From Candidatus Gastranaerophilales bacterium (lineage in GTDB: Bacteria > Cyanobacteriota > Vampirovibrionia > Gastranaerophilales > Gastranaerophilaceae): DNA of 64,000 nucleotides. The position numbers and the translations under genes are program-made. The notes beneath the pieces were generated by a model that was not told the DNA's origin, made no database searches, and worked only from the letters and a program-made list of their open reading frames with translations. The stretch is from contig CALUYY010000002.1 of the NCBI GenBank assembly GCA_944325155.1, positions 124,001-188,000 of the forward strand, read 5' to 3'. Of the stretch, positions 39,770-45,799 are shown piece after piece. Within the stretch, counting starts at the first letter, position 1; each line of letters begins with the position of its first letter.

Positions 39770-40432
39770 TTACAACTTTTTAAAGTCATTAACCAATTTA
39801 TCGTATAAATTTTTTAATTCATTCTCAACTTTTAATCTGTAATTTTCAAGTTCATCTTCCGTTGCATTAAAGGGGACATAAATCGGGTTGCCGTATAGTG
39901 CTTTCATTTTGATACAATTCAGGGGAAAACAAAATTCATCCCATGTATTAAATTTTAAGAAAAACCATGAAGGCGAATACCAGCTCATAGGAACAATGGG
40001 AATGCCGGTCATTCTTGCAATTTCAATTATTCCTTTTTTTACTTTGTGTTTGGGACCTCTCGGACCGTCTATTGTAAGTGCGCCGTTATTTCCTTTTTTA
40101 ATGGCGTCAATTAATTCTAACGTTGCGCTTGCGCCTTTTCTGTTATGCGACCCTCTTACAACGTTTAAACCCATTGCGGAGCCTGCCTGTGCTATGATTT
40201 CACCGTCTGCCGAATTTGAAATCATAACTGTCGTTTTCTCTCTTTCTTTAAGAGCGTACAATCCGCACTGGTGCGCATGCCAGAGTGCAAAAATACATTG
40301 ATTTTCGGGATAATTTATATTTTTGCAGTAATAAAAATGTCTTTTAAATTCAAAATATAATGTAACAAGTTTTGCCAGAAACTGTGTTCTTTGGGGTTTC
40401 GGGAAAATTTTATCTATTAATTTAGCGCCCAT
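39770..40432 (-). CDS. Lysophospholipid acyltransferase-like (DUF374) protein
   Basis: A 220-residue membrane-associated protein. It contains IFALWHAHQCGLYAL, in which WHAH fits the acyltransferase H-x4-D-type region of the DUF374 family, then GSHNRKGASATLELIDAIKKGNNGALTIDGPRGPKHKVKKGIIEIARMTGIPIVPMSW, the typical DGPRGP block. DUF374 proteins are related to LpxL-type acyltransferases and may acylate lipid A or other lipids. It starts inside the stop of hisD (TAATG), so it is the last gene of the operon. Confidence 0.82.
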   Translation of the reverse strand: MGAKLIDKIFPKPQRTQFLAKLVTLYFEFKRHFYYCKNINYPENQCIFALWHAHQCGLYALKEREKTTVMISNSADGEIIAQAGSAMGLNVVRGSHNRKGASATLELIDAIKKGNNGALTIDGPRGPKHKVKKGIIEIARMTGIPIVPMSWYSPSWFFLKFNTWDEFCFPLNCIKMKALYGNPIYVPFNATEDELENYRLKVENELKNLYDKLVNDFKKL

Positions 40433-41703
40433 TATTTATCCCCCCTTAAATCGGATGCAAGCTTATGAGCTTTCAGACCTTCTTTGTCTGCAATATATGA
40501 TGCATAATTTGATAATTCTTTTGCATAAGTTTTATCTATTTTTTGATAAGTTAAAATTTTAATATAATCAAAAACGGATAATCCGCCCGTATATTTTGAA
40601 GCCATATTGGTAGGCAGCACATGGTTTGTTCCCGATACATAATCTCCGAATACTTCGGCACAGTTTGAACCTATAAATAAAGAGCCGTAATTTTTAAATT
40701 TATCGATTATATCCTTATATTCTTCAATCATTATTTCTAAGTGTTCCGGAGCTCTTTTATTTGTTATTTCAATCATTTCATCGATATTATCGCATATAAC
40801 GGCATATGATTTTTCAAATGAAATTTTAGCTATTTCTTTTGTTTCAAGCTTTTCTAAAAATTCATCCGCATAATTTTGAACCTTATTTGCAAGTTCAAAA
40901 GATGTTGTTATAAGATAGCTTCTTGCATCTTTATCATGCTCCGCTTGCGCAAGCATATCGGCCGCAATAAGTTTTGCATCGGCATTATTATCCGCCGCAA
41001 CCAAAACTTCGGATGGCCCTGCCAAAAAATCTATGTCAACTTTGCCAAATACGTGTTTTTTTGCATAAGTTACATATTTATTCCCCGGTCCCGTTATTTT
41101 ATCAACTTCATTTATGGAATTTGTACCGTAAGCAAATGCGCTTATGGCTTGCGCTCCGCCCAGTTTATAAATTTTATCTGCGCCTGCAATATGTGCGGCA
41201 ACGATTGTTTCTGGTTTAATTTTGGGCGAAGTAAGATAAATCTCTTTTACCCCCGCCTCTTTTGCGGGAACAACCGTCATTAAGGCGGAACTGGGGAGCG
41301 GATAATTCCCCCCGGGGACATAACATAAAACACGGTTTAAAGGGATAATTTTATGTCCCAGTATTGAATTATTTTTTTCAAATTCAAGATTTTTTATACA
41401 ATCAAGCTGTTTTTTTGCAAATTCCTTTATGTTGTTTTTGGCATACGTTATTTTATTAACGTATTCTTGCCCTACAATGTTATACGCATTTATAATTTCA
41501 TCGTTTGAAACGACAAAATCATCCGGTGAATTAAAATCTCCGTCATTGAATTTTTTTGAAATTTCAATTAAATAATTATCACCTTTTAATTTAACGTTAT
41601 TTATAATTTCATCAACGGATGAATTATTGTCATATTCAATAACTCTGTAAAATTCATCATAAATTTCTTTGTTTTCTAAATCTTTATATGTGATTATTTT
41701 CAT
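40432..41703 (-). CDS. hisD: Histidinol dehydrogenase
   Basis: A 423-residue zinc enzyme that oxidises L-histidinol to L-histidine in two NAD-dependent steps. Family blocks are RVLCYVPGGNYPLPSSALMTVVPAKEAGVKEI, KLGGAQAISAFAYGTNSI, KITGPGNKYVTYAKKHVFGKVDIDFLAGPSEVLV, QAEHDKDARS, RAPEHLEIM and GTNHVLPT. It overlaps the HisA-HisI-HisE fusion gene at its start and the DUF374 gene at its stop by one base each (TAATG). Confidence 0.97.
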   Translation of the reverse strand: MKIITYKDLENKEIYDEFYRVIEYDNNSSVDEIINNVKLKGDNYLIEISKKFNDGDFNSPDDFVVSNDEIINAYNIVGQEYVNKITYAKNNIKEFAKKQLDCIKNLEFEKNNSILGHKIIPLNRVLCYVPGGNYPLPSSALMTVVPAKEAGVKEIYLTSPKIKPETIVAAHIAGADKIYKLGGAQAISAFAYGTNSINEVDKITGPGNKYVTYAKKHVFGKVDIDFLAGPSEVLVAADNNADAKLIAADMLAQAEHDKDARSYLITTSFELANKVQNYADEFLEKLETKEIAKISFEKSYAVICDNIDEMIEITNKRAPEHLEIMIEEYKDIIDKFKNYGSLFIGSNCAEVFGDYVSGTNHVLPTNMASKYTGGLSVFDYIKILTYQKIDKTYAKELSNYASYIADKEGLKAHKLASDLRGDK

Positions 41704-42948: not shown

Positions 42949-43968
42949 TTATTTTAAAATATTATCCAAAAATCCCCATTCAAATTTGCGTTTTCTTGCA
43001 TTTTCCATTTTTGCGTTATCAAACGGAAGTCTTGTAAGTTCCGTTAAAATCGGGTGCAAATCCGGCTCTTCGCTTGCTTCAAGGTGTTTTATATCAAATT
43101 CGTACGCAAGATTTCTGACTTTTACGCTGTATGAAACGGGAACCGTTTTAATTCCGTATTTCAGCCCCAATATGTTAGCATGTAAACGCATTGCAATCAA
43201 ATATTTTAATTTGGAAAATTCATCCAGTATCTGGTTTGTGTTTTTATAAAGCACGACTTTTGTTTTAATACGCATATTTCTTTGTTTTATGTATTTTTCA
43301 AGCGCATAGCATTCTTTGGCATCGGATTTGTTTTGGAATGAATAAATCCTGATTTCCTGATCGCCAAAGAACATATCAATATATTTTGCAAGGAATTTAT
43401 AAAAATCTTTATGCAGAAATTTATAATCTCTTAATTGGATACCGACTATGTTTTGCGGGTTATATTCAGGTGTTTTTATGCTCCAGACGGCGTCATAGGT
43501 AAATTTTGAAGGAATTTTCCATTTTGTTAAAATTCTTTGTGAATATATATCTCTTACCGTTATTAAGTCCGCTTTTTTTAATACGGATTTAACAAGCCCT
43601 TCCTGAAATTTTCCTTTTACGGGACCTATGCCTTGAGAAAAAAGAATAACTTTTTTCATAAATATTTTTGAAATAAATATAATAAAAAGGTAATAAAAAA
43701 GGCTTAAATTGCTTGTTTCGTTTTGTATTAAATTTCCGCCCCCCGAGATTATTACATCATTTCTTAATATTTCTTTTATGATGCCGAAGAAATCTTTATA
43801 ATAAACCGAATTAATTTTAAAAGTTTCTTTTGTAAGTTTGGGGTCGGCGCTCAGTGCCGTTATTTCATAATCTTTTGATTTAAGATAATCAGAAAGAACT
43901 TCAAGCATGGCATCATCGCCGAAATTTGAAAAACCAATGTATCCAGAAATTAATGCTTTCTTAGCCAT
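42949..43968 (-). CDS. csaB: CsaB-type polysaccharide pyruvyl transferase
   Basis: A 339-residue protein opening ALISGYIGFSNFGDDAMLEVLSDYL, followed by VIISGGGNLIQNETSNLSLFYY, KVILFSQGIGPVKGKF, LITVRDIYSQRIL and IAMRLHANILGLKYGIKTVPVSYSVKVRNLAYEF. These match CsaB, which adds ketal pyruvate to a wall polysaccharide and allows SLH-domain proteins to bind it. It overlaps the upstream PfkB-like gene by eight bases and lies 13 bases before the his fusion gene, in one operon. Confidence 0.9.
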   Translation of the reverse strand: MAKKALISGYIGFSNFGDDAMLEVLSDYLKSKDYEITALSADPKLTKETFKINSVYYKDFFGIIKEILRNDVIISGGGNLIQNETSNLSLFYYLFIIFISKIFMKKVILFSQGIGPVKGKFQEGLVKSVLKKADLITVRDIYSQRILTKWKIPSKFTYDAVWSIKTPEYNPQNIVGIQLRDYKFLHKDFYKFLAKYIDMFFGDQEIRIYSFQNKSDAKECYALEKYIKQRNMRIKTKVVLYKNTNQILDEFSKLKYLIAMRLHANILGLKYGIKTVPVSYSVKVRNLAYEFDIKHLEASEEPDLHPILTELTRLPFDNAKMENARKRKFEWGFLDNILK

Positions 43969-44896
43969 AATATTTATCCATCATGTTAACTACGTCTTTT
44001 TTATGGGGAATAGATCTTATCGCACCCGTTTTTCCCGCCTGTATCAGTCCTAATATGTTTGCATATTTAAGAGAATCGCTCTGGCTCTCGCCTTTTATTC
44101 TTGAACTTATATATGCTCCTATTATTGCGGATGTATATCCCGTTAAATCTACGGGATTAAAATCTTCGGGTATTTTAACAAAGCTTACTTCCGTTCTGTT
44201 TGAAGCCCAGATTCCTTCATTATTTTTTATGATTAAAGCTTTTTCAATCTGATTATCCGCCAATTTTGCAATTAAGTTATCGGGGCTTTCGGTTTCAAAT
44301 AAAATGTCATCCTTTGTATTAATAAAAATTGTATCAATATAATCTTTAACTTCTTCAAACATTTCTTTTGCTTCGTCAATCAAAAGGTCTGTGTGTCTGA
44401 AATTGGGGTAATAACCGACATGGAGTCCGTTTTCTTTTGCAAATTTAAAAGTTTCTTTGACAACTTCTCTGCATCCTAAGGATAATGATTGTACAAATGC
44501 CGTTGCAAAAATGTATTTTGCCGATTTTATATAGTTAAAATCTATATCATCTATGCTCAATGTGGTTGCAGCCGTTTTTTTTCTGTAAAACTGCATTTCA
44601 ACTTTGTTGTTATTTTGCCCCGTAAAATAAATTCCGTTTTGAAAATCGGAAAACCTGACCTGCCCTGAATCTAATCCTTCAGATTGCCAGCAGTCAAGAA
44701 GATACTGTCCGAAGCCGTCATTTTTAACTTTTGTAATATATCCTACTTTAGAACCGCTTCTAAGCGCAGATATCGCAACCGCAAGAGTGTCTCCGCCATA
44801 ATATTTTGTAAATGTTTCGGCAGAAGATAATGACTTATCGGAAGATAATTCTATTAAGCTCTCTCCGATGGTAATAATATCTAAATTCTCATACAT
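43961..44896 (-). CDS. PfkB-family sugar-kinase-like protein lacking the catalytic Asp
   Basis: A 311-residue protein with the ribokinase/PfkB fold, resembling 2-keto-3-deoxygluconate kinases: IITIGESLIELSSD, FTKYYGGDTLAVAISALRSGSKVGYITKVKNDGFGQYLL, GIYFTGQ and NEGIWASNRT. The diagnostic motif D-(S/T)-T-G-A-G-D at the active site is replaced by D250-L-T-G-Y-T-S256: the anion-hole Ala-Gly is changed and the catalytic Asp is Ser. The DNA at 44126-44150 shows no frameshift. The family's phosphoryl transfer needs that Asp, so this is probably a pseudokinase or a much-altered enzyme. It heads the csaB-his operon. Confidence 0.85.
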   Translation of the reverse strand: MYENLDIITIGESLIELSSDKSLSSAETFTKYYGGDTLAVAISALRSGSKVGYITKVKNDGFGQYLLDCWQSEGLDSGQVRFSDFQNGIYFTGQNNNKVEMQFYRKKTAATTLSIDDIDFNYIKSAKYIFATAFVQSLSLGCREVVKETFKFAKENGLHVGYYPNFRHTDLLIDEAKEMFEEVKDYIDTIFINTKDDILFETESPDNLIAKLADNQIEKALIIKNNEGIWASNRTEVSFVKIPEDFNPVDLTGYTSAIIGAYISSRIKGESQSDSLKYANILGLIQAGKTGAIRSIPHKKDVVNMMDKYYG

Positions 44897-44986
44897 AACA
44901 AAAAAATTTTAAACTGAACAATTCTTTTGTGTCAAATTATTAATTCTGTTGCCAAATTAAAGCCGTTTGTTTTAAGCTTTTATATT

Positions 44987-45799
44987 ATGAAAAATGTTTT
45001 AATAACGGGCGCCACGTCCGATATGGCAGTTCCTTTAATAAAAAAGCTTCTTAATGACAATGTTATTGTTTATGCGCTTTCAAGAAGCGAACTTAAGCTT
45101 GAAGATGAATTGTTAAAAAAAACCAGGCTTGATTTGTCGGATGAATTCGGCATAAATAACTATTTTATTTCACTTAACGATGTTAAATTTGATGCGGTAA
45201 TATTTTTCCATGGCATTGCAATTTCATCTCCGGTTGAATTTTTAAGTTCCAATGAATTAAATAAGCAGCTTTCAATTTCTTTATTTTCAACGCTTGCAAT
45301 TTTAAAAAATTTAAGAAAAAGGCTCACTAAAACCTCAAAAATAATAACCGTTTCATCAATGGCAAGCTACGGCATTTTTCCTTTTTTATCGCCTTATGAA
45401 ATTGCAAAATCTTCGGTTGATACTCTTTTATGTTCTTATGAAATTGAAACGGGGATTAAAACAATTTCTGTTAAACCCGGCGTTGTTTCAACAAAATTTT
45501 GGAGAACATCCGTTGAATTAAATAAAGATAATTTTGAATCTTTTCCTTTTGAATATCGTTTTATCGGTGAATTTTTAAAAGATAATGCGCTTAAAAACGA
45601 AAATAAAGGAATAAAACCCGATGACGTTTCAAATTTAATATATAGAATAATGTATTTAAAAAACCCGAAATCTTCTTATGATATCGGAATTGATTCAAAA
45701 TTTACAAATTTTATTTCAAAATTTAAAGGCAGATTTTTATTTGGTATTATAAGAAAGATTTTAAGAAGAAGAGTGAAGAAATATTTAAATGAAAGATAG
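44987..45799 (+). CDS. Short-chain dehydrogenase/reductase (SDR) family protein
   Basis: A 270-residue SDR with the cofactor motif LITGATSDMAVPLI, FHGIAISSPVEFLSS in place of the usual NNAG, catalytic Ser in ITVSSMASYG, and the YxxxK pair as YEIAK. It continues with VKPGVVSTKFW. The C-terminal tail is strongly basic (RKILRRRVKKYL). The reading begins at ATG 44987; a longer frame from 44927 lacks any ribosome-binding site and has no homology-like sequence. The substrate is unknown. It overlaps the radical SAM gene by 11 bases. Confidence 0.82.
   Translation: MKNVLITGATSDMAVPLIKKLLNDNVIVYALSRSELKLEDELLKKTRLDLSDEFGINNYFISLNDVKFDAVIFFHGIAISSPVEFLSSNELNKQLSISLFSTLAILKNLRKRLTKTSKIITVSSMASYGIFPFLSPYEIAKSSVDTLLCSYEIETGIKTISVKPGVVSTKFWRTSVELNKDNFESFPFEYRFIGEFLKDNALKNENKGIKPDDVSNLIYRIMYLKNPKSSYDIGIDSKFTNFISKFKGRFLFGIIRKILRRRVKKYLNER

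Follow-up and report, generated by a model that had tools for sequence, protein, structure and literature searches.

A PfkB-fold protein without its catalytic aspartate: a probable clade-specific pseudokinase encoded beside csaB in Gastranaerophilales

What is a PfkB-family gene worth to a cell when its product no longer carries the catalytic aspartate: is it an error of sequencing, a relict, or the source of a protein kept for another activity? The question is raised by one gene in the window, i.e., the whole stretch of 64,000 nt analysed here (GCA_944325155.1, CALUYY010000002.1:124,001-188,000, forward strand), within which the coordinates of Table 1 count. The initial annotation had read D-L-T-G-Y-T-S instead of D-x-T-G-A-G-D at 44126-44150, and this reading is exact, the seven codons occupying 44129-44149 on the minus strand.

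Table 1. Features of the window gene and of its neighbours
Feature	Coordinates	Strand	Basis or remark
Putative PfkB-fold pseudokinase, 311 aa	43961..44896	-	translation, profile matches, orthologues, predicted fold
Degenerate catalytic motif D250-L-T-G-Y-T-S256 (expected D-x-T-G-A-G-D)	44129..44149	-	translation, orthologue alignment
Nucleotide-side stretch, residues 216-229; G216, K223 and Y229 of Asp-keeping relatives lost	44210..44251	-	alignment
Sugar-side lid motif F103-Y104-R105	44582..44590	-	Y104 and R105 in 19/19 Asp-less rows
Sugar-side motif G34-G35-D36	44789..44797	-	invariant in 19/19 Asp-less and 78/78 Asp-keeping rows
csaB, polysaccharide pyruvyl transferase; 8-base overlap between its start and the pfkB stop	42949..43968	-	TIGR03609, 230.5 bits against a cut-off of 213.1
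hisA-hisI-hisE fused gene, 410 aa	41703..42935	-	profile matches
hisD	40432..41703	-	profile match
DUF374 protein (PF04028)	39770..40432	-	profile match
Divergent short-chain dehydrogenase	44927..45799	+	upstream of pfkB; of the loci read, conserved in those of the Asp-less clade alone

The open reading frame contains no internal stop, and its product matches PF00294 (PfkB) with 93.8 bits against a gathering cut-off of 25.8 (E 1.5e-26), residues 5-297 lying on profile positions 3-301 of 302. An AlphaFold2 model built from 6 sequences adopts the ribokinase-like fold (pLDDT 71, pTM 0.79); its confidence is medium overall and below 50 across most of the lid, and the solved folds nearest to the model are those of the KDG kinases 1v19, 2dcn and 2v78 (for 2dcn_A, Z 27.5 and rmsd 2.9 over 262 aligned residues). 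Within the motif, the first Gly (G253) persists along with D250 and T252; Tyr stands at column 254, Thr at column 255 (the second Gly of GAGD) and Ser at residue 256, the column of the catalytic Asp, so that G-Y-T-S replaces the C-terminal G/A-x-G-D motif of PF00294. In ketohexokinase this motif forms the anion hole for the gamma-phosphate, and its Asp would serve as the base (PMC2651755, excerpt). The two further PfkB proteins of the same genome (L001 and L002 in G000, 1.88 Mb in 23 contigs) both keep GAGD.

Orthologues with the same change, which the initial annotation had recommended seeking, were found throughout one clade. The window protein was matched in 9/9 genomes of its genus and in 117 of the 146 genomes of its family (E <= 1e-10); one hundred loci were fetched, from 97 of the 117 matched family genomes and 3 more genus genomes, and 97 full-length orthologues, all from MAGs of Gastranaerophilales (gut bacteria related to the cyanobacteria but without photosynthesis), were aligned, the partial rows L048, L137 and L138 being left out. 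The Asp column is D in 78/78 rows outside the clade (30 genera) and in 11/11 outgroup proteins from the class, whereas none of the 19 clade rows has it (S in 11, A in 6, N in 2). The Asp-less rows belong to five genera (g1, g3, g36, g37 and g39), and each of the 8 genus genomes that gave a full-length row, our own included, has this loss; the ninth has a partial copy, fragment L015, which also reads TGYTS. These 19 rows form a single clade with support 100/100, which persists when the motif columns are excluded and the outgroup is added (SH-aLRT 100), and the tree without motif columns requires one state change, which fits a single event in the common ancestor of the clade. Its sister group is unsure, g19 taking this place at 81/83 in one tree and the node being unresolved in the tree without motif columns. 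Orthologues with an intact GAGD, which the initial annotation had thought would reduce the change to a local error, do exist, but outside the clade only; the change is therefore a derived trait of the clade, and a sequencing or assembly error is rejected, since the loss is common to all of its full-length rows.

The degeneration is asymmetric. The initial annotation had assumed that the rest of the fold was kept, which holds for the fold as such and for the sugar half; on the nucleotide side, by contrast, several residues besides GAGD have been lost too. Thus, G34, G35, D36, N87, Y90, Y104, R105 and N165 are identical in 19/19 clade rows, and G58, G216, K223, S224, Y229, G255 and D256 are lost in most of them. 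When a site is counted as conserved if 90% or more of the Asp-keeping rows agree in it, and the protein is split into residues 1-197 and 198-311, the clade has lost 1/49 conserved sites in the former part versus 6/21 in the latter (Fisher p 0.0023, rising to 0.012 at a threshold of 93% and to 0.085 at 97%). Furthermore, the ratio of C-terminal to N-terminal divergence between genera is 1.50 in the clade, against a mean of 1.12 (sd 0.08) in 400 sets of five Asp-keeping genera drawn at random, with at most 3 rows per genus and no matching for age, none of which reaches 1.50. With the cut placed at residue 120, 150, 170, 197 or 210, the clade value is reached by 20, 3, 0, 0 and 0 draws, respectively, and by 35, 2, 0, 0 and 0 when the motif is excluded. 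The excess divergence of the clade lies in residues 221-300, which from the general architecture of the PfkB fold we take to be nucleotide-facing, and is highest at 221-240 (residues 1-20 have no value in the Asp-keeping set, one row of which starts late); the N-terminal half of the clade diverges slightly less than that of Asp-keeping genera. Ligand binding, one of the two roles that the initial annotation had envisaged, is likely from this pattern of kept sugar-side and lost nucleotide-side sites; as to a regulatory role, profile searches of the window protein found no DNA-binding or other effector domain.

From which enzyme would such a protein derive? The KDG/KDGal kinase model NF040938 is among the best NCBIfam matches and covers the whole length, at 108.5 bits against a cut-off of 400; TIGR04382 (IolC) scores alike (108.7 bits, cut-off 300), and four Asp-keeping relatives also fall below the NF040938 cut-off (155.3, 149.8, 160 and 186.5 bits). 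The likeness to KdgK further includes the nearest solved folds and part of the sugar site. The substrate residues of the Sulfolobus solfataricus KDG kinase are G34, Y90, Y106, R108, R166, D258 and D294 (PMC5334617, excerpt), and the window protein keeps G34, Y90 and R108 (its R105), with Phe (F103) for Y106 and S256 for D258. R166 corresponds to R167 of the window protein if the D-x-N-x-R motif is followed, against a shifted HMMER alignment, but this position of the KDG-reading Arg is not conserved across the family; the ligand need not, for that reason, be KDG, and may be another compound. Besides the catalytic Asp and the second Gly, the window protein differs from KdgK in the nucleotide-side residues K223, G216 and Y229, and in that eda no longer adjoins it. 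Indeed, a KDPG-aldolase-like (eda) gene lies directly upstream in 47/80 Asp-keeping loci, giving the order eda-kdgK-csaB, and in 0/20 clade loci (the family, PF01081, was assigned by matching coordinates from a genome-wide search). As so many Asp-keeping relatives stand in this cluster, the ancestor of the clade was probably a 2-keto-3-deoxy-sugar-acid kinase. UxuA, the mannonate dehydratase that is a source of KDG, is absent from 37/37 genomes of both kinds and hence uninformative. A replacement of the lost activity by another PfkB copy was also considered: the genomes examined have 2-4 PfkB matches in the clade and 3-5 among Asp-keepers, and a close second copy was not seen.

The Asp-keeping rows are themselves not uniform. 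Column 253 is C in 35 and S in 11 of the 78, as against the G/A of G/A-x-G-D, and some of these relatives may also have low activity. One of the Asp-keeping proteins, L120 (g26), has the motif TGSKD, a long branch (0.89) and Ala for Y90; another, L087 (g27), has the damaged motif TSSFD. In Ca. Galligastranaerophilus intestinigallinarum (G001), one of the genus genomes, the orthologue is frame-shifted and split over two frames (L155:3502-4430, contig C64), with an additional fragment on a different contig; either the gene is broken or the MAG may be in error here.

A KDPG-aldolase family gene is present in 139/146 family genomes, including all the Asp-less ones searched, and a loss of the whole pathway along with the kinase is not supported, eda being kept elsewhere in clade genomes. 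There, the setting of eda followed by the kinase does not hold; with g22 counted, the gene adjoins kdsD-like genes in 4 genera and kdsC-like genes in 6, these names, as well as lysA-like and diadenylate-cyclase-like, being assigned by eye from the sequence and not by family search. Three settings of the aldolase gene can be distinguished: with kdsD/kdsC-like neighbours in the clade (L157:3739-6251 and equivalents), with lysA/diadenylate-cyclase-like genes ahead in nine other genera, and before kdgK-csaB in many others. A 4-residue deletion just after the stretch of the catalytic Glu occurs in 13/13 clade aldolases read (5 genera) and in 5/5 from g22 (G000:C2:35807-36325, i.e., L157:3739-4341 on the minus strand; equivalents in L158-L168, L174, L191-L194 and L196), and is absent in 31/31 other aldolases read. 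All 49 aldolases have Lys and Glu in their places, and in all 49 Gly, Ser or Asn occupies the site numbered Thr73 in E. coli (PMC5334617, excerpt). With the deletion and the Asp loss, one and the same clade has thus altered both members of the former pathway pair. Moreover, in 19 genomes of six other genera (L169-L173 and L176 among the loci), eda stands directly before csaB with no pfkB match between them, as read from match coordinates against the pfkB search at E <= 1e-10; the kinase is therefore dispensable in the family. It has gone in two ways: some genomes lack the gene altogether, and in the present clade the protein was kept but its catalytic residues were lost.

On the downstream side, the operon with csaB and histidine genes that the initial annotation described is present, hisA-hisIE, hisD and the DUF374 gene following csaB. 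csaB lies directly downstream of pfkB on the same strand in 97/100 loci and overlaps it in all 19 clade loci where csaB is present. hisA-hisIE follows in 17/20 clade loci, and the divergent dehydrogenase precedes in 18/20; the association with his genes is specific to the clade, and the link with csaB is older and stronger. The HisA-HisI-HisE fusion extends over (nearly) the whole length in 13/22 genomes searched, two of which come from outside the family (one each from a different family of the order and of the class); it is not among the five his fusions listed in the excerpted text of PMC1963479 (2007). A sixth genus, g22, gave no orthologue of the window gene in the family search, though its membership of the clade is supported by its csaB, which groups with that of g3 on a long branch, by the common aldolase deletion, by the eda/kdsC-like neighbourhood and by the order csaB then hisAIE. 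The PfkB gene that g22 carries beside csaB (L175) was rejected as an orthologue of the window gene, being that of L002 (68% identity).

We regard it as probable, though well short of certain, that the window gene encodes a clade-specific PfkB-fold pseudokinase derived from a KDG-type kinase, which likely still binds a sugar acid or related ligand, leaves it unphosphorylated and serves another protein as ligand-dependent partner. The ancestral KDG-type kinase would have belonged to an eda-kdgK-csaB cluster; before the five genera (six by synteny) diverged from their common ancestor, the Asp, the adjacent Gly and several residues of the nucleotide pocket would have been lost, the sugar pocket and lid remaining under selection. 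The resulting protein would bind its ligand with the intact half and act through another protein, for which CsaB, encoded by the overlapping downstream gene, is the best candidate. We infer the absence of kinase activity, the binding and any partner alongside what the alignments and loci record: motif loss, its phylogenetic pattern, the sugar/nucleotide asymmetry, purifying selection and the csaB overlap. Against this reading, csaB survives without pfkB in the 19 eda-csaB genomes, and g22 has lost pfkB; the protein is therefore neither essential nor a general requirement of CsaB.

Could the protein be a kinase, or another phosphotransfer enzyme, after all, working through other residues? Its sugar pocket is kept, D250 persists in 18/19 clade rows and T252-G253 in 19/19, and some supposed pseudoenzymes turn out to have migrated residues (PMC10211241, excerpt). 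Yet the clade variants (TGYTS, TGNTS, TGWES, TGWEA, TGASN, TGVSN, TGCDA, TGISA and TGINA) share no replacement acid at columns 254-256, and a nearby substitute is rejected, an acid at column 255 occurring in g36 (E) and g39 (D) alone; the anion-hole residue G255 has gone along with K223, G216 and Y229, and the nucleotide half shows faster divergence than its counterpart in relatives. Retained catalysis thus appears hardly probable to us. At the level of sequence, the clade-wide loss of the base and of part of the anion hole lends good support to the initial annotation, which took the protein not to be a sugar kinase. That the clade copy is a relict on its way out, of a kinase dispensable family-wide, gains something from the missing genes of the 19 genomes and of g22, the frame-shifted copy in G001 and the motif-damaged L120 and L087; we nevertheless give such slow decay a small chance, only slightly better than that of catalysis, in view of a full-length open frame in five genera, a constrained N-terminal half, low dN/dS and a normal rate relative to csaB. 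Within-genus dN/dS is 0.029-0.183 for 6 clade pairs (dS 0.89-1.50, near saturation) and 0.025-0.207 for 16 other pairs, and the PfkB/csaB divergence ratio is 0.90 in the clade versus 0.875 outside between genera, and 0.62 versus 0.69 within genera. By these measures the window gene does not appear to be decaying, a pseudogene is rejected, and the claim of the initial annotation that base and anion-hole residues went without frameshift or decay agrees with the data, for part of the anion hole.

Other readings concern the partner. The protein might be a non-catalytic subunit that binds CsaB and tunes cell-wall pyruvylation, the sugar pocket being conserved for an interface or dimer and not for a free ligand. 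The near-constant adjacency and the overlap of the genes speak in its favour, as do the intact catalytic residues of CsaB in the clade: R139, R261, H263 and K283, equated by spacing with the PEP-site residues R148, R306, H308 and K328 tested in Paenibacillus alvei CsaB (PMC10435577, excerpt; the excerpted text mentions no PfkB partner). A gene overlap suggests co-expression, not contact, and csaB is retained without pfkB in the genomes already cited, so we hold this version to be possible but rather doubtful. Bolder still, and in our opinion unlikely, is a keto-deoxy-sugar kinase turned into a ligand-sensing, non-catalytic CsaB subunit that would link the sugar-acid pool to outer-envelope attachment in one gut clade, its former aldolase partner having changed in the same clade. 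In the PfkB fold the lid forms dimers, and the half that is kept includes the lid; a dead/live heterodimer with another PfkB protein of the cell, the lid half serving as dimer face, could then recruit one of the two GAGD-intact proteins of the genome, but there is no linkage to either gene and both are only distantly similar, making this highly improbable. The pseudokinase that binds a ligand and acts on a partner remains our preferred reading.

The loss is also a warning not to label these genes KDG kinases when the metabolism of gut Gastranaerophilales is modelled. A bacterial PfkB clade without the Asp was not found among the papers that searches of the open-licence PMC literature listed; the non-catalytic PfkB proteins found there are plant plastid proteins, all of which keep the catalytic Asp. 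The present family brings together Asp-keeping, Asp-less and gene-less members, the sugar half being clearly retained and the nucleotide half relaxed, and makes it testable what role a small-molecule kinase may take once it is no longer an enzyme.

The closest precedent is that of FLN1 and FLN2, PAP subunits of the plastid RNA polymerase, which likewise have a PfkB fold, lack fructokinase activity and serve as non-enzymatic partners; FLN1 chains (8w9z_I, 8wa0_I) are among both the sequence and the fold matches of the window protein. According to the excerpted sources, FLN1 has the motif GSGD and FLN2 A/QSGD (PMC5864856), and no fructokinase activity is found in plant FLNs in spite of these motifs (PMC5864856, PMC9698557); they keep the Asp, have roughly 500 and more than 600 residues, and belong to a transcription complex. 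The window protein, which has lost the Asp and is encoded in a bacterial metabolic (csaB) operon, does not fall within an FLN type defined by the PfkB fold, absence of kinase activity and a kept G/A/Q-S-G-D. PfkB-fold pseudoenzymes are thus known from FLN1 and FLN2, and what is new here is a bacterial protein that has lost even the Asp, with its sugar half kept.
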